Shown here: one piece after another, positions 23,162-57,418 of the stretch | How positions within the stretch are numbered: position 1 is the stretch's first letter | Layout of the letters: every line of letters starts with the position of its first letter | DNA from: Mesorhizobium waimense | Lineage (GTDB): Bacteria; Pseudomonadota; Alphaproteobacteria; Rhizobiales; Rhizobiaceae | Assembly (NCBI RefSeq): GCF_003601975.1 | Contig: NZ_QZWZ01000009.1 | Location: 1 to 64,000, forward strand | Direction: 5' to 3' | DNA length: 64,000 nucleotides | Program-made: the position numbers and the translations under genes | Notes under the pieces: generated by a model | The model's input: the letters and a program-made list of their open reading frames with translations, nothing else | The model's database searches: none | What the model was told of the DNA's origin: nothing

Positions 23162-23803
23162 TCACGACGGTGCTGTCCCAGCATGATCGAATGTCCCGCC
23201 GCGTTCCAGCCCCTTGATGAAGACGGCGACCAGCAGCTCGACCTGCTCCCAGGTTTCATCGGCCTGCCTGCCGGCGGAATTGGCTGCATAGCCGCTGGTG
23301 ACGATGCCATGCACGCTTGACCACAAGGTCCGGGCGGCGATCCGCAGCCGGGTTTCGTCGAGGCCGAAGCTGCCGTCGGCAAGCACCCTTGCGATGATCT
23401 GCAGCAAGGCGCTGAGCCGCGCCTCATAGGCATCCGGCTCAGCATGCGGCAGCTGACGCCGATTGAAGGCGAGCAAGGCCGGCCAGCTCGCTGGATGCGC
23501 TGCCACGAACCCAGCATAGGCGCGCGCCAGCGCCAGCAGGCGTTGGCGCGTATCGGTCACGCCGGCTTTCTGCAGCTCTGCCATTGCCGAGGCGCCGGCT
23601 TCGCCCAGCCGACCGAGCAACCGCATGTTCACCGCGCGGTGCAGATCGTCGATGTCGCGGAACAGATTGTAGATGGAGCCGACCGCGATCCCGGCCTGCG
23701 TGGCGATGGTCCTGGCCTTGAGGTTCTCCGCCCCGCCCGCCTCGATCAGATCCTCAGCGATGGCTATGACACGCTCGCTCATCTCTTCCTTGTCCAGTGC
23801 CAA
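23162..23803 (-). CDS. TetR-family regulator of the PspA-like operon
   Basis: A 213-residue protein. The DNA-binding domain is SERVIAIAEDLIEAGGAENL, KARTIATQAGIAVGSIYNLF and RDIDDLHRAVNMRLL. The ligand domain includes ALARAYAGFVAAHPASWPAL and a C-terminal ARTLWSSVHGIVTSGYAANS helix, as in the WHG-type TetR C-terminal family. It is divergent from a pspA-like gene with three repeats of TGAACA-N-N-TTCA-type palindromes between, its probable operators. Confidence 0.88.
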   Translation of the reverse strand: MALDKEEMSERVIAIAEDLIEAGGAENLKARTIATQAGIAVGSIYNLFRDIDDLHRAVNMRLLGRLGEAGASAMAELQKAGVTDTRQRLLALARAYAGFVAAHPASWPALLAFNRRQLPHAEPDAYEARLSALLQIIARVLADGSFGLDETRLRIAARTLWSSVHGIVTSGYAANSAGRQADETWEQVELLVAVFIKGLERGGTFDHAGTAPS

Positions 23804-23872: not shown

Positions 23873-23942
23873 TGAACAGCGTTCAAAATTCTCCTTGAAC
23901 ACTGTTCATTTTCTGTTATGGTGCATTTGTGAACACCGTTCA
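23873..23942. promoter_or_regulatory. Three-copy palindromic operator between tetR and pspA-like gene
   Basis: The 13-mer tgaacaNNgttca type occurs as tgaacagcgttca (23873-23885), tgaacactgttca (23896-23908) and tgaacaccgttca (23930-23942). The outer five bases on each side are constant palindromic arms, while the centre varies. Centre-to-centre distances are 23 and 34 bp. They cover the divergent promoters; the last lies 20 bp before the pspA-like start codon. Confidence 0.82.
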
Positions 23943-23961
23943 TAACCGGAGGAACGAAAAA

Positions 23962-24639
23962 ATGCTTAGTCTTATCAGGACATTGCTGGACGGCGCGAGC
24001 GCCAAGGCCGAGGACAGGCTGAAAGACCAGTTCGCTGTCGATCTTCTCGCCCAGCGCATCCGCGATGCCGAAGCCGGCCTCGCTTCGGCCAAGCAGACAC
24101 TCGCCTCGCTGATCGTGCGTCAGCGGGCCGAACAGGCCAGCCTCGACCAGCTCGACCGCCGCATCGCCGATCTGGAGGAGCGCACCCGCAGCGCCCTTGC
24201 CGCTGGCAACGAGCCCCTCGCCCGCGATGGCGCCGGCGCCATCGCCGAATTGGAGAACGAACGCGAGGTCCGCCGCGCCACCGTGCGCAGCCTGGTGGAA
24301 AAGACCTTGCGCATGCGCATGTCGCTGGAACAGGCGCACCGGCGCATCGTCGACCTCAACCAGGGCATGATCTCGGCCCGCGCCATCGACGCGGAACAGA
24401 AGGCGCAGCGCCGGCTGAACCGGTCCATCGGTCGGACGGCAAGCCTCAACGAGGCCGAGGCGCTGCTGGCGCGCATCAGGGAGCGCAGCGATCCGTTCGA
24501 GGAAGCGAGCATTCTCGATGAGATCGACGCCGGTCTCAGCCAGGAAGCCATTCGCAGCAGGCTGGAGGATGCCGGTCACGGCCCCTCGACCAAGGTGCGC
24601 GCACAAGATGTGCTCGACCGTCTGAAATCCACCCACTGA
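23962..24639 (+). CDS. PspA/IM30-family protein
   Basis: A 225-residue, almost entirely helical protein with long coiled coils (RIRDAEAGLASAKQTLASLI, LDQLDRRIADLEERTRSALA, TVRSLVEKTLRMRMSLEQAH). Such proteins form ESCRT-III-like assemblies on the inner face of the membrane and support it under stress. ATG 23962 is chosen because GGAGGA precedes it; an upstream in-frame ATG at 23929 lies within the operator. Followed by a YiaAB-like gene 60 bp later. Regulation by the divergent TetR is likely, unlike the sigma-54/PspF control of enterobacteria. Confidence 0.82.
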   Translation: MLSLIRTLLDGASAKAEDRLKDQFAVDLLAQRIRDAEAGLASAKQTLASLIVRQRAEQASLDQLDRRIADLEERTRSALAAGNEPLARDGAGAIAELENEREVRRATVRSLVEKTLRMRMSLEQAHRRIVDLNQGMISARAIDAEQKAQRRLNRSIGRTASLNEAEALLARIRERSDPFEEASILDEIDAGLSQEAIRSRLEDAGHGPSTKVRAQDVLDRLKSTH

Positions 24640-49649: not shown

Positions 49650-50105
49650 ATGACCAAAGCCGCACTTCCGGGACTTAGCCTTTGCAACAACGCCACGCTG
49701 CGGCGCGCCGGGCGCAAGCTCGGCCGGTTCTACGACGATGTGTTGGCCCCTTCGGGCCTGAAGGGCACGCAATATGGCCTGCTCTATCAGATCCATATCG
49801 GCAGCGAGCCGGCGATGGGCGCCATAGCCGAGGCGCTGATCATGGACCTGTCGGCGCTCGGCCATACGTTGAAGCCGCTGATCCGTGACGGTTATGTCGA
49901 GACCTTCGCCGACAAGGACGACCGCCGCGTCAAGCGCGTGCGGTTGATGCCGCAAGGCCGAGCCAAGCTCGACGAAGCGATGAAGCTGTGGAGTGTCGCC
50001 CAGCAGCGCTTCGAAGCGATGGTCGGCAAGGACGAGGCGGCGAAGCTGCGCGCGGCGCTTGATGCAGTCGCCGCGCTGGATTTCGATATGCCGCCGGCCA
50101 GATAG
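49650..50105 (+). CDS. MarR-family transcriptional regulator
   Basis: A 151-residue protein from ATG 49650, with GGAG upstream; the longer frame back to 49470 crosses the operators. Winged-helix parts: LKGTQYGLLYQIHIGSEPAM, GAIAEALIMDLSALGHTLKP and LIRDGYVETFADKDDRRVKR, where DRR-KR is the wing. An N-terminal CNNATLRRAGR segment fits a group of thiol-bearing MarR proteins (Cys11), so redox sensing is possible. Probably represses the divergent SDR gene. Confidence 0.9.
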   Translation: MTKAALPGLSLCNNATLRRAGRKLGRFYDDVLAPSGLKGTQYGLLYQIHIGSEPAMGAIAEALIMDLSALGHTLKPLIRDGYVETFADKDDRRVKRVRLMPQGRAKLDEAMKLWSVAQQRFEAMVGKDEAAKLRAALDAVAALDFDMPPAR

Positions 50106-50128
50106 GCGGCCGGCGACTTCGTATAAGA

Positions 50129-51307
50129 CTACTCCGCCGGAACCGCGACCGGCCGCGCCAGCATCCGCCCGGCCAACACGACGCCGAGCCCGATCAACGG
50201 GAACGCCGCGGCGATCAGGCCGAGATCGGCCGGCGCGCCGTAGCGCAGCACGGCACCGCCGACCACCGCGCCCAGCGCCACACCGAGATAGAGCGCCGAA
50301 GCGTTGAGCGACAGCACGATCGGAGCAGCGTCGGGCGCCAGCTTGATGATGCGGCTGGCCTGCGCCGGCGGGAAGGCCCAGCCGACGATGCCCCACGGCA
50401 CCATCATCGCCATCAGCGCCGGCCCTGCAATATGGTGCGGCAGGAAGGTCGGGATGACCGACAACATGACCAGCATGGCCGCGCTCAGCGCCAGCGACCA
50501 GCCGACGGTGCGCGTCGCGCCGAAGCGGTCTGCGGCCTGCCCGCCGGCAATGTTGCCGATGACGGCCCCGACACCGAAGGCGAGCAGCATGCCGGGCAGC
50601 GCCAGCGGGCTCAGGCCGCCACCTTCGATGGCCAGCGGCGCGACATAGGAAAAGACGGTGAAGGCGCCGATCAGTGCCAACATCGTCGTCAGCAGGATCG
50701 GCATCACGCCGGGACGCAGCGCTGCCGCCAGCCGGCGCTTCAGCGGCAGCCTGGTGCCGACGATGCCGCGCGGCAGCCGGTACCACAGGATCGCGCCGGC
50801 GAGAGCACCGAGCCCGGCAATGGCAAAGAAGGTGCCGCGCCAGCCGGCGACGGTCGCGACAAGCGCACCGAGCGGCGCGCCAAGGGCAACGGCCACCGTG
50901 GTGCCGCCGACGACGACGGCAATGGCGCGGGCCCGGTGATGGTCATCGACCAGGGCCACCGCCGTGCCTTGCGCGGTGGCCGCGAACAGGCCCGACGACA
51001 GCGCCATGATGATACGGGCAATGAGCAGCAATTCGAAGGATGAGCTCAGCGCCGCCACCAGATTGCCGAGCACGAAGAACACCAGCGTCCACAGGATGAC
51101 GCGGCGCCGGTCCCATTCGCCGGTCAGCGTCGCCAGGATCGGCGTGCCGACGGCATAGGCAAGCGCGAAGGCGGTGATCAGCGTGCCGGCGAGTGGAATG
51201 GAGATTCCGGCATCGGTTGCGATGTCGGGCAGAAGGCTGGAGATGACGAAGCCTTCGGTCGAGATCGTGAACGATCCGAGCGCAAGCCAGAAGAGGCGCT
51301 TGTCCAT
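50129..51307 (-). CDS. MFS transporter, DHA1 family
   Basis: A 392-residue, 12-helix protein from ATG 51307, preceded by AAGGACA. Features: FTISTEGFVISSLLPDIATD in helix 1, TGEWDRRRVILWTLVFFVLG (motif A position) and VVGGTTVAVALGAPLGALVA in helix 5. It resembles drug and arabinose effluxers such as YdhP and NepI. It is divergent from an ArsR-type regulator, the likely controller. Substrate unknown. Confidence 0.88.
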   Translation of the reverse strand: MDKRLFWLALGSFTISTEGFVISSLLPDIATDAGISIPLAGTLITAFALAYAVGTPILATLTGEWDRRRVILWTLVFFVLGNLVAALSSSFELLLIARIIMALSSGLFAATAQGTAVALVDDHHRARAIAVVVGGTTVAVALGAPLGALVATVAGWRGTFFAIAGLGALAGAILWYRLPRGIVGTRLPLKRRLAAALRPGVMPILLTTMLALIGAFTVFSYVAPLAIEGGGLSPLALPGMLLAFGVGAVIGNIAGGQAADRFGATRTVGWSLALSAAMLVMLSVIPTFLPHHIAGPALMAMMVPWGIVGWAFPPAQASRIIKLAPDAAPIVLSLNASALYLGVALGAVVGGAVLRYGAPADLGLIAAAFPLIGLGVVLAGRMLARPVAVPAE

Positions 51308-51501
51308 GGCGGGTGTCCTTAGTTCAAAAGTTATTGAACAATTGGACATAACAGGGCATGATGTCAATGAAGCCACGGAAAAATAGCTGAAGCCTGCTGA
51401 CAGCCCTGTGTCAGGACAGGGCATGAAACGAAAAGACTGCGTGCACGCACCGAAGGAGGAGATACGTTGAAATCGGTATCGTTTGCGCCTAATTCTCGGG
51501 C

Positions 51502-51861
51502 ATGACACTGCCCCACCCCAACGCTGACCAGATCAGCCTGCCGATCGTGCTCGCCGTGCTCGGCGATCCGACCAGGCTCGCCATTGTGCGCTATCTCGCC
51601 AGCAAGGAAGGCGTGCCGCTGAGCTGCAGCCAGTTCCTCGATCTCGCGTCGAAGACAAATCTCAGCTATCACCTGGCCAAGCTGCGCGAGGCCGGCGTGA
51701 CCCGCGCCGAAGTGGTCGGCACCAACCGGATGATCACGCTGCGCCGCGCCGATCTCGACGCCCGCTTCCCCGGCCTGCTCGACAGCGTCATCGCGGCCGC
51801 CGGCGAAGACAAGGCGCTGCCGATGGTCGGTGGCGCCGACGAGATCGAAATCCCCGCCTAA
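51502..51861 (+). CDS. ArsR-type helix-turn-helix regulator
   Basis: A 119-residue protein with a winged helix: LPIVLAVLGDPTRLAIVRYL, CSQFLDLASKTNLSYHLAKL and REAGVTRAEVVGTNRMITLR. Two Cys-containing metal motifs typical of metal-sensing members (ELCVCDL) are lacking, so it is not an arsenic or zinc sensor of the classic type. The 194-bp gap to the MFS start contains an A/T-rich dyad gttcaaaagttattgaac (51322-51339), which may be its operator. Probably represses the MFS gene. Confidence 0.87.
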   Translation: MTLPHPNADQISLPIVLAVLGDPTRLAIVRYLASKEGVPLSCSQFLDLASKTNLSYHLAKLREAGVTRAEVVGTNRMITLRRADLDARFPGLLDSVIAAAGEDKALPMVGGADEIEIPA

Positions 51862-51871
51862 CCTCCAGAAC

Positions 51872-51910
51872 TTGGGTTCCTCGCCCCCGGAATGCGGGGG
51901 AGAGGAACGC
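51872..51910. repeat. Intergenic palindrome, copy 2 of a shared repeat
   Basis: ttgggttcctcgcccc followed by gaatg and then gggggagaggaacgc makes a stem like that at 47039-47080, with the left arm identical over 16 bases and the right arm partly decayed. It separates the ArsR gene from the phosphoesterase gene. Confidence 0.68.
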
Positions 51911-51933
51911 CACCTCATCACCGGAGCTCCCTC

Positions 51934-52692
51934 ATGCGCATCGCCGTCCTCGCCGATATCCACGGCAACGTCCTGGCATTGGATGCCGTGCTCGACGATC
52001 TCAAGCGCCGCGGCGGTGCTGATCTCACCGTCAATCTCGGCGACTGCGTCTCAGGCCCGCTGTGGCCGCGCGAGACCATGGAACGGCTCGAGGCGCTTGG
52101 CCTGCCGACGGTGCGCGGCAACCACGACCGCCGCGTCGCCGTCGACCCGGCCGACGACAACATGTGGCCGTCCGACCGCTATGCGCAGGAGCGGCTGACA
52201 CCAACGCAGCGCGAGGCGCTGCTTGCCTTGCCTTTCACGCTGGAGATCGTGCCCGGCGTGATCGCCTTCCACGCAAGGCCCGACCATGACGAGAAATACC
52301 TCGCCGACGCGATTAGCGACGGTCAGCTGGTGCGCGCGCCGCTCGCCGCCATAAGGCGAAGGCTGAAGCCGCTCGACCCAGCGTGCCGCATCGTGCTCTG
52401 CGGCCACAGCCACCGCAGCGAGCTAATCCGCATTCCCGGCGGCCCGGTCATCTTCAATCCGGGCAGCGTCGGCTGCCCCGCCTATGACGATTCGACGCCG
52501 CCGGCGCATGTCTCCGAGCAGGGCTCGCCGCATGCGCGCTTCGGCATTGTCGAGCTGGATATACCCGGCCGTCCCGACCGCTTCGAGGCCTTTGCCGTCG
52601 ACTACGACCATGAGGCGGCCGCACGGCAGGCCGAACGGGCGGAACGACCGGAATGGGCGCACGCGCTCAGGACAGGGTTCATGTCAGACTGA
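51934..52692 (+). CDS. Metallophosphoesterase (YfcE/MJ0936-like)
   Basis: A 252-residue protein from ATG 51934, preceded by GGAG. All metal motifs of the calcineurin-like fold are present: ADIHGN at residues 8-13, GDCV near 36-39, GNHDRR near 64-69, and GHSHRS with a later NPGSVG. It probably hydrolyses phosphodiesters; substrate unknown. The gene's stop lies in the first palindrome of the array that follows, which may end its transcript. Confidence 0.9.
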   Translation: MRIAVLADIHGNVLALDAVLDDLKRRGGADLTVNLGDCVSGPLWPRETMERLEALGLPTVRGNHDRRVAVDPADDNMWPSDRYAQERLTPTQREALLALPFTLEIVPGVIAFHARPDHDEKYLADAISDGQLVRAPLAAIRRRLKPLDPACRIVLCGHSHRSELIRIPGGPVIFNPGSVGCPAYDDSTPPAHVSEQGSPHARFGIVELDIPGRPDRFEAFAVDYDHEAAARQAERAERPEWAHALRTGFMSD

Positions 52693-52790
52693 ACGCAGAA
52701 TGCGTTCATGTCAGACTGAACCTACTGGTTCATGCCTCAGGCTGAACGCGGTACGCGTTCATGCCTCAGGCTGAACGCGGTACGCGTTCA
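52677..52790. repeat. Palindromic tandem array after the phosphoesterase gene
   Basis: Units beginning gttcatg start at 52677, 52704, 52728, 52757 and (partial) 52786, with lengths 27, 24, 29 and 29. Between units are four perfect palindromes: tgaacgcagaatgcgttca (52690-52708), tgaacctactggttca (52717-52732), and tgaacgcggtacgcgttca twice (52743-52761, 52772-52790). Outer arms tgaac/gttca are constant; inner arms differ but stay self-complementary. The spacers are tcatgtcagac or tcatgcctcaggc. Units 3 and 4 are identical. Confidence 0.9.
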
Positions 52791-52921
52791 TGCCCCCGCT
52801 GAATAAGCAGCTGCGTCTTTTCGGGATGACATGGCATCGCGTCGTCCCTTATAAAACGCTCCGGCAAGCGGCGGCGACTTCTGAGTCGGGCCGCGCTTTA
52901 ACGCACGCCCACGGCCAGGTG

Positions 52922-53722
52922 ATGAGGCGCACGATTACGCTCCCGAAGACGCTGCACCTCATGATTGCCGCTCCGTTTCTGCTGGCGGCACTGCCGGTCA
53001 GCGCCGAAGAGCCGGCACCTGTCGTCTCCTATGTCAGCGGCCTCGCGCCCGACGATCTCCTCAACATACGCGCTTCGCCGTCGGCGATCGGCAAGACCGA
53101 GGCGCGCCTGCCGGTCGGCTCACCCCTCAAGAACTTCGGCTGCGCCGACGTCAACGGCAATCCGTGGTGCAAGGTCGAAGAGGTCGACAACCCGCAGATC
53201 CGCGGGTGGGCTCCGGCGCGCTACCTCAACCCCGCCAGCGCGGTGGTGCTGACGGAAGCGAATATGGCATTTTCCGCCCAACCGAACTCTGCGGCCACGA
53301 CGCCGCCGCCCGACCTGACAGCACGCCTGGGCGCGGACCAGACGACCGAGCCCCACGGCGCGCCGAAATCCGCCGAGGCAATCGGCAGGACCGCCATGCA
53401 GGATGCCTATGGCCTGGCCTTCGCGACCGTTGAAACCGCCTCGACTGGAGACGGCACCGCTTCCGGCATTCCCTGTGCGCGCAATGTCGGCCAGCCAATG
53501 ACCCGCTGCGAGATAAGCGTCGCGCATACGGGTGGCGACAGCGCGGTGACCGTGACATGGCCGGATGGCGGCACCCGCATCATCAGCTTTCACGGCGGCC
53601 TGCCGACCGGCTCGGACTCGTCAGACGAGTTCCGCTTCACCCGCGAGGGCAGCCTCAACATGATCCGTGTTGGCGTTTCCGAGCGCTTCGAGATCACCGA
53701 CGCTTTGGCGACCGGCGGCTAG
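52922..53722 (+). CDS. Secreted protein with an SH3-type domain
   Basis: A 266-residue protein from ATG 52922. The signal peptide is about residues 1-28 (LMIAAPFLLAALPVSA). An SH3b-like domain follows at about 35-100: LAPDDLLNIRASPSAIGKTE, LPVGSPLKNFGCADVNGNPW, CKVEEV, RGWAPARYLNP. The C-terminal part has a DAYGLAFATVET segment and paired strands with two cysteines (IPCARNVGQPMTRCEI), and a VTVTWPDGGTRIISFHGG region. Such SH3b proteins often bind cell-wall or surface ligands. No catalytic domain is seen. Confidence 0.85.
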   Translation: MRRTITLPKTLHLMIAAPFLLAALPVSAEEPAPVVSYVSGLAPDDLLNIRASPSAIGKTEARLPVGSPLKNFGCADVNGNPWCKVEEVDNPQIRGWAPARYLNPASAVVLTEANMAFSAQPNSAATTPPPDLTARLGADQTTEPHGAPKSAEAIGRTAMQDAYGLAFATVETASTGDGTASGIPCARNVGQPMTRCEISVAHTGGDSAVTVTWPDGGTRIISFHGGLPTGSDSSDEFRFTREGSLNMIRVGVSERFEITDALATGG

Positions 53723-53851
53723 GGGGCGGGCGTCGAGGGACAGCGAGGTGCTTGTTGGGGGCAGTCCCTACAACCCGCATTTTCGGGGTTACATCCAGCA
53801 AAACTCTTCCCTATAAGGCCCTCCTAGCCTGATACCAGAATCGCAAGCACA

Positions 53852-53879
53852 ACCGGCCGGGTCTTCCCGCCCGGTTTTT
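53852..53879 (+). terminator. Terminator-like hairpin just upstream of carB (possible attenuator)
   Basis: accggccggg and cccgcccggt pair around a four-base loop with one C-C mismatch, followed by TTTTTC. It ends only 35 bp before the carB ATG, while the upstream gene stops 130 bp before it. It is either a late terminator for that gene or a leader hairpin in the carB transcript. Confidence 0.72.
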
Positions 53880-53914
53880 CGTGCAAGCCGCTCGCCGAAC
53901 GGAACGCCTCGACC

Positions 53915-57418
<3,504 letters not shown>

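Follow-up and report, generated by a model that had tools for sequence, protein, structure and literature searches.

A fast-evolving tandem palindrome array behind a phosphoesterase gene in Mesorhizobium

The window, a stretch of 64,000 nucleotides from Mesorhizobium waimense, contains a calcineurin-like phosphoesterase gene that is followed by a row of palindromes, a promoter-like stretch and a gene with a weak SH3-domain match (Table 1). The phosphoesterase reading frame opens at 51892; its start was taken by us as 51934, and relatives align over the whole query from this position. The closest named relatives at the locus are two Mesorhizobium amorphae records, whose phosphoesterases are 97% and 95% identical. 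The promoter-like stretch was recognized by eye and was not called by a consensus promoter scan. On the other side of the phosphoesterase gene, a GTTCAAAAGTTATTGAAC dyad (51322-51339) is possibly an operator: it lies close to where a minus-strand ORF, transporter-like by eye (50129-51508), begins, and an ArsR-like gene (51502 on) has the dyad upstream of it.

Table 1. Genes, palindromes and spacer dyads at the locus (window coordinates)
Feature	Position	Strand	Details
Calcineurin-like phosphoesterase gene	51934..52692	+	PF12850 E 8e-16, PF00149 E 2e-13
Spacer-type dyad 1	52677-52694	.	GTTCA-T-GTC-A-GAC-TGAAC; the phosphoesterase's own final codons (F M S D stop)
Palindrome 1	52690-52708	.	TGAACGCA-GAA-TGCGTTCA
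Spacer dyad 2	52704-52721	.	Identical to dyad 1
Palindrome 2	52717-52732	.	TGAACC-TACT-GGTTCA
Spacer dyad 3	52728-52747	.	GTTCA-T-GCCTCAGGC-TGAAC
Palindrome 3	52743-52761	.	TGAACGCG-GTA-CGCGTTCA
Spacer dyad 4	52757-52776	.	Copy of dyad 3
Palindrome 4	52772-52790	.	TGAACGCG-GTA-CGCGTTCA; exact copy of palindrome 3, offset 29 bp
Promoter-like stretch (by eye)	52826..52855	+	ATGACA ... TATAAA here; also present in many relatives, where it separates the array from the gene that follows
Downstream gene, weak SH3-domain match	52922..53722	+	PF08239 E 2e-5, 25.0 bits, below the 27-bit cut-off; start chosen by us

The array spans 52677-52790 as alternating palindromes, and the four perfect TGAAC..GTTCA palindromes that a preliminary description had claimed behind the phosphoesterase gene are all found within 52690-52790. 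The inner arms change together under the constant outer arms (GCA/TGC, C/G and GCG/CGC), and the stop codon of the gene overlaps the first palindrome, the TGA at 52690-52692 forming its bases 1-3, both as described there. The picture of four differing palindromes stands in part: all four are perfect, but two are identical, and therefore the window array holds only three distinct inner-arm types. The small dyads reported in the spacers (GTTCATGTCAGACTGAAC twice and GTTCATGCCTCAGGCTGAAC twice) are present as well, each with a one-base bulge; dyads are expected there, since a row of tandem palindromes is palindromic across its joints too. Compared with the sister M. amorphae locus L044 (L numbers denote loci), where the palindrome 3 type occurs once, the window array contains one extra 29-bp copy. 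The motif TGAAC(N2-14)GTTCA was observed seven times in the window versus 0.43 expected, and none of 100 shuffles reached seven (maximum three).

Four of these seven sites form the array, and the other three are 13-bp TGAACANNGTTCA sites at 23873-23942, upstream of a TetR gene (23162-23803, minus strand). Their other side is occupied by a PspA-like gene (23929-24639, plus strand, by eye), and the cluster is probably an ordinary TetR operator cluster. The link drawn in the preliminary description between the outer arms of the array and these operators is not supported: only the 5-bp outer arm is shared, and the arms of the array differ from one species to another (TGAAC, TGAGC, TAAGC, TAAAC and TGAAGC). 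The array was likewise considered as a set of TetR operators itself and rejected, on account of its unfixed arms, its position after a stop codon and the separate location of the TetR sites. The five-base resemblance looks accidental.

Relatives of the array were collected across the genus. The phosphoesterase gene is present in 107 of 146 genus genomes, and the gap behind it, referred to as site A, was fetched as 187 loci (80 from named records and 107 others). A script read 178 of them, and merging of sequences equal over 200 nt left 109 distinct sequences, 105 of them in the genus; the nine loci that were not anchored (L076, L079, L084, L091, L122, L301, L317, L345 and L359) include at least two, L084 and L091, that do show units. 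The four distinct sequences from other genera, assigned by their titles, contain no unit. Within the genus, 197 units by the script rule occur in 74 of the 105 distinct sequences, at 1-10 each: 50 sequences carry at least two units, 24 carry a single one, of which at least that of L099 looks like chance, and 31 carry none. Unit number, which the preliminary description proposed to compare between strains, is variable across these sequences. Site A comprises about 100 distinct units and 63 different unit sets overall. The row behind the phosphoesterase gene is a genuine tandem array of palindromes, situated at the end of a gene and evolving fast.

One genus-wide unit pattern matches 62 of 146 genomes (3 match the reversed control) and a second matches 70 of 146 (9 match the control), with single sites inside genes among these matches. 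A sequence search listed 108 of 146 genus genomes at E up to 1, many through short weak matches, and this count was not used. In a family sample, used to look beyond the genus, 12 of 386 genomes match the arm-spacer pattern, never more than once, and 3 match the reversed control, all of them pattern matches only. The most units counted, ten by the script rule, occur in L143 (G074:C1:72500-74500, 788-1053), which displays nine near-identical 30-bp units, with TGAGC/GCTCA arms in units 1-5 and TGAAC/GTTCA arms in units 6-9; units 1-8 differ solely by this compensated pair, and the ninth differs in its loop and flank as well.

The common unit in relatives has the form GGC-TGARC-(inner arm)-loop-(inner arm)-GYTCA-T-GCC, with the T bulged, and the spacing of units varies from about 20 to 30 bp. 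Arms include TGAAC/GTTCA, TGAGC/GCTCA, TAAGC/GCTTA, TAAACGC/GCGTTTA, TGAAGC/GCTTCA, TGAATGC/GCATTCA and TGAGG/CCTCA, and the flanks GGC/GCC, GAT/ATC, GGT/ACC and GAC/GTC co-change as well. Units were scored in three length classes, and in every class the covariation score exceeds that of all 500 shuffles, for units that were preselected with at most one outer-stem mismatch and against shuffles that do not allow for relatedness; because of this choice of units the share of paired cells is inflated. Further pair types show no excess over the shuffles, 128, 384 and 454 of 500 of which are as high. A further comparison used pairs 4 and 5, for which units were picked regardless of those pairs, with the outer letters fixed and the listed flanks accepted. 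At pair 4, 92 of 104 units are Watson-Crick versus 57% expected if the arms were independent, and at pair 5 the figures are 77 of 91 units versus 67%, indicating that the covariation is real. Compensated arm changes are a frequent feature of relatives across Mesorhizobium.

Such covariation could reflect selected RNA hairpins in the 3' UTR, for which pairing would be needed to shield the phosphoesterase mRNA from 3' exonucleases or to stop transcription ahead of the downstream gene. This reading agrees with the strong folding of the 135-nt array stretch as sense RNA (z-score -7.25 against shuffled sequences), with the covariation score just described, with the frequent GAA and CUUG loops and with the position of the array between the stop codon and the promoter-like stretch. 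The antisense strand, however, folds equally well (-8.81), and the terminator scan of 52500-53000 called nothing on the plus strand, where no hairpin is directly followed by a T run; its one call, on the minus strand at 52870-52857, lies outside the array. A search of the region 50000-56000 with Rfam models, reporting matches with E values as high as 5, gave none that covers the array.

Intermediates also bear on this reading. If pairing of the transcript were needed, G.U intermediates should be tolerated and A.C intermediates should not. Pairs 2, 4 and 5 show 23 transition mismatches confined to one side, nine of G.U type and 14 of A.C type (p=0.40 against equality). For rRNA, G-U pairs are reported to have been involved in 78.5% of the two-step compensations (PMC8794818); against this share, from a data set not strictly alike, p=5e-5. 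Removal of four A.C rows that are apparently mis-registered leaves 9 versus 10 (p=1.0 for equality and 0.003 for 78.5%), and both versions of the test comprise 19-23 cells that are not fully independent. Looser counts agree, with 8 G.U-type versus 11 A.C-type mismatches in the outer stem and 20 versus 27 when flanks are included. A selected RNA hairpin should leave more G.U than A.C intermediates on the transcribed strand, and no such surplus is seen. A count over all hairpins of the region (G.T+T.G 9, A.C+C.A 15, with 10-12 loci excluded by hand) was discarded, being swamped by chance hairpins outside the array.

Units were also compared within single arrays. Stem differences consist of compensated pairs alone in 15 unit pairs, of a single one-sided change in 12 and of several such changes in 4, and the one-sided differences indicate that uncorrected intermediates exist. 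L070 contains both TGAGG-GAA-CCTCA and TGAGC-GCA-GCTCA, which differ by a compensated C-G/G-C transversion that one wobble step could not produce. Furthermore, one array, L292, combines TGAACGC-AAGT-GCGTTCA with TGAACGC-ACTT-GCGTTCA, a single case of loop inversion for which the controls gave no pair ('complement') and one 3-nt pair ('reversed'). Homogenisation of arms and inversion of the spacer are the template-switch marks reported for yeast genes in the cited part of one study (PMC8604942), and template switching has been argued, in the corresponding part of another, to be able to create and maintain stems (PMC8794818). Arms made identical by compensated changes free of wobble bias are consistent with this mechanism and do not amount to proof of it.

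Turnover of the array was followed on a phosphoesterase gene tree of 77 rows (52 with units, 21 without and 4 not read), a quick tree in which 19 of 74 inner branches are well supported. Unit presence changes at least 12 times (18.5 for shuffled labels), and the well-supported, starred branches alone force 6 changes; the exact array content changes at least 51 times over 73 labelled rows. L089, for instance, carries three units, and L082 and L085, within the same starred set, carry none. An element needed for phosphoesterase expression would hardly behave in this way. Taken with the missing G.U excess and the 31 of 105 sequences that lack a unit, this makes selected RNA hairpins a rather unlikely source of the covariation.

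Symmetry may instead be selected in the DNA, through cruciform extrusion or protein binding. The symmetry is strand-neutral, in agreement with the lack of a G.U excess, and the stretch folds well as DNA (z-score -7.60); GNA-type loops, moreover, form stable DNA hairpins. Freely varying arm sequences are, however, ill-suited to a sequence-specific dimer, unit spacing is not constant and many species lack the unit, so that we consider a function of this kind very unlikely.

Units related to those of site A are found elsewhere in the genus. In other Mesorhizobium genomes a 21-bp unit, GGCATGAGC-NNN-GCTCAGCC-T in gene direction, lies at four further stop/start junctions, which often overlap (ATGA); outside its loop it equals the reverse complement of a common site-A unit. 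Named by reading of their translations, the junction genes are CoxM/CoxS-like, YebC/SelT-like (site C), an ABC-transporter ATPase (site D) and ADP-ribosylglycohydrolase-like/PfkB-like. At the ABC-transporter site, where 22 of 31 loci were read and 9 left unread, 18 loci show the junction without any unit, as GCATGAGC-GAACC or closely similar, and one or two 21-bp additions are present in 4. The unit sits there as a clean 21-bp insertion. At the YebC site, at least one copied unit occurs by a loose rule in 26 of 69 loci read (1 of 70 left unread), and the M. waimense genome itself (L198) has no unit there. The junction units are in frame (7 codons, e.g. MSGAQPG) and add repeated ATG start codons to the downstream gene. 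These in-frame 21-bp palindromic repeats were seen in loci L124-L142 and L190-L259, which belong to other Mesorhizobium genomes and not to the window.

These junctions raise the possibility that a dispersed palindromic element enters at gene ends and multiplies afterwards, in which case the phosphoesterase array would be one of its landing sites. Besides the clean insertion, matches of up to 100% over 51 bp between units of different sites and different genomes point in this direction; part of the likeness in reverse complement is to be expected anyway, however, because near-palindromes resemble their own reverse complements. No association is visible within genomes between the flank types of site A and those of the YebC site, as judged in 17 genomes with units at both by a loose rule, among 55 with both loci fetched. 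The M. waimense genome offers no second array either: a 151-bp query matches only the array site below E=1, and two pattern searches gave only single or chance matches outside the array (6 + 1). The GTTCATG..CTGAAC pattern has 10 matches, 4 at the array and 6 single elsewhere (reversed control 1), and the arm-spacer pattern has 3, 2 at the array and one single 17-bp site. In addition, the genome contains no match to the RAYT transposase (Y1_Tnp, PF01797), for which the same search was positive in 5 of 14 control genomes. Arrival as such an element is therefore, in our estimate, quite improbable. Uniqueness to this site, which the preliminary description would have counted against its reading, holds for the M. 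waimense genome as covered by these searches, but other genomes carry relatives of the unit at a small number of further gene junctions.

The covariation of the array probably stems from copying of arms at the DNA level, by template switching in duplicated palindromes, rather than from selection on RNA hairpins. We prefer this explanation because A.C intermediates are as frequent as G.U ones, uncompensated units exist, one unit has an inverted loop and 31 of 105 sequences have no unit. In many relatives the phosphoesterase gene ends in TTY ATG CCN GGC TGA (..FMPG-stop), itself an imperfect palindrome, although the form TTYAT(N3-9)GGYTRA fits no more than 47 of 109 gene ends. Tandem palindromes would have grown at this 3' end, presumably with a local origin from the gene end, whose final codons the spacer part of each unit resembles. 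Slippage would add and remove units, and the replication machinery, switching template within a folded strand, may occasionally rewrite one arm, or an adjacent unit, to match the other. An alteration of either arm would soon be copied to its partner, so that the arms would remain complementary, and the array would be tolerated because it lies beyond the stop codon, presumably free of any needed function. The gene's own TTY-codon letter shows no association with the arms of its array (5/38 vs 2/33), and copying between gene end and array is thus not seen there. Some selection for hairpins may act in addition, as the arms pair more often than random sequences would and most of the genus has units. 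The preliminary description left a choice between selected structure and the copying of a palindromic element; copying is the better fit, and selected structure fares worse in view of the balanced intermediates, the frequent absence and the fast turnover.

A broader scheme can be outlined for the genus, which we regard as conceivable though doubtful. Stop codons lying in chance palindromes might seed transposase-free repeats: template switching would make a 21-30 bp hairpin unit at a stop/start junction, slippage would multiply it, and shared short ends (GGC-TGAGC / GGCATGAGC) would let copies spread to other junctions of the genus, there in frame and adding start codons. Stem covariation is usually read as proof of functional RNA, and the array pairs strong covariation with strand-neutral intermediates and frequent absence. 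It warns against labelling such loci structured RNAs, and the site-A series provides a test bed for how often compensatory change comes from DNA copying rather than from selection.

No published description of such an array was found in the searches made among open-licence PubMed Central papers, and several known systems invite comparison. Intrinsic terminators are GC-rich hairpins after a stop codon; the array likewise consists of hairpins after a stop codon, but has several in tandem and no T run called. RIMEs are rhizobial intergenic repeats of about 100 bp that are dispersed. The array is also an intergenic repeat of rhizobia, and RIME, considered here by its description, differs in that length and dispersal. 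REPs are placed at gene ends. Like the REP and REPIN sequences in the cited part of their description (PMC3733652), the array palindromes are short, extragenic and clustered; unlike them, they occur at one site in their own genome, with no Y1_Tnp gene found and no GTAG tag ending a unit. By eye, neither GTAG nor CGTC ends a palindrome unit in the window, and a GTAG on the minus strand lies inside palindrome 2, over the loop. Quasipalindrome template-switch mutation differs in setting, as the cases in the cited parts of the two papers are rRNA genes and yeast genes, whereas the array consists of tandem palindromes at one gene end, genus-wide. The homogenised arms, compensated changes and stable short loops described there are nevertheless shared by the array, and the loop inversion has a possible counterpart in the one case in L292 (PMC8794818, PMC8604942).
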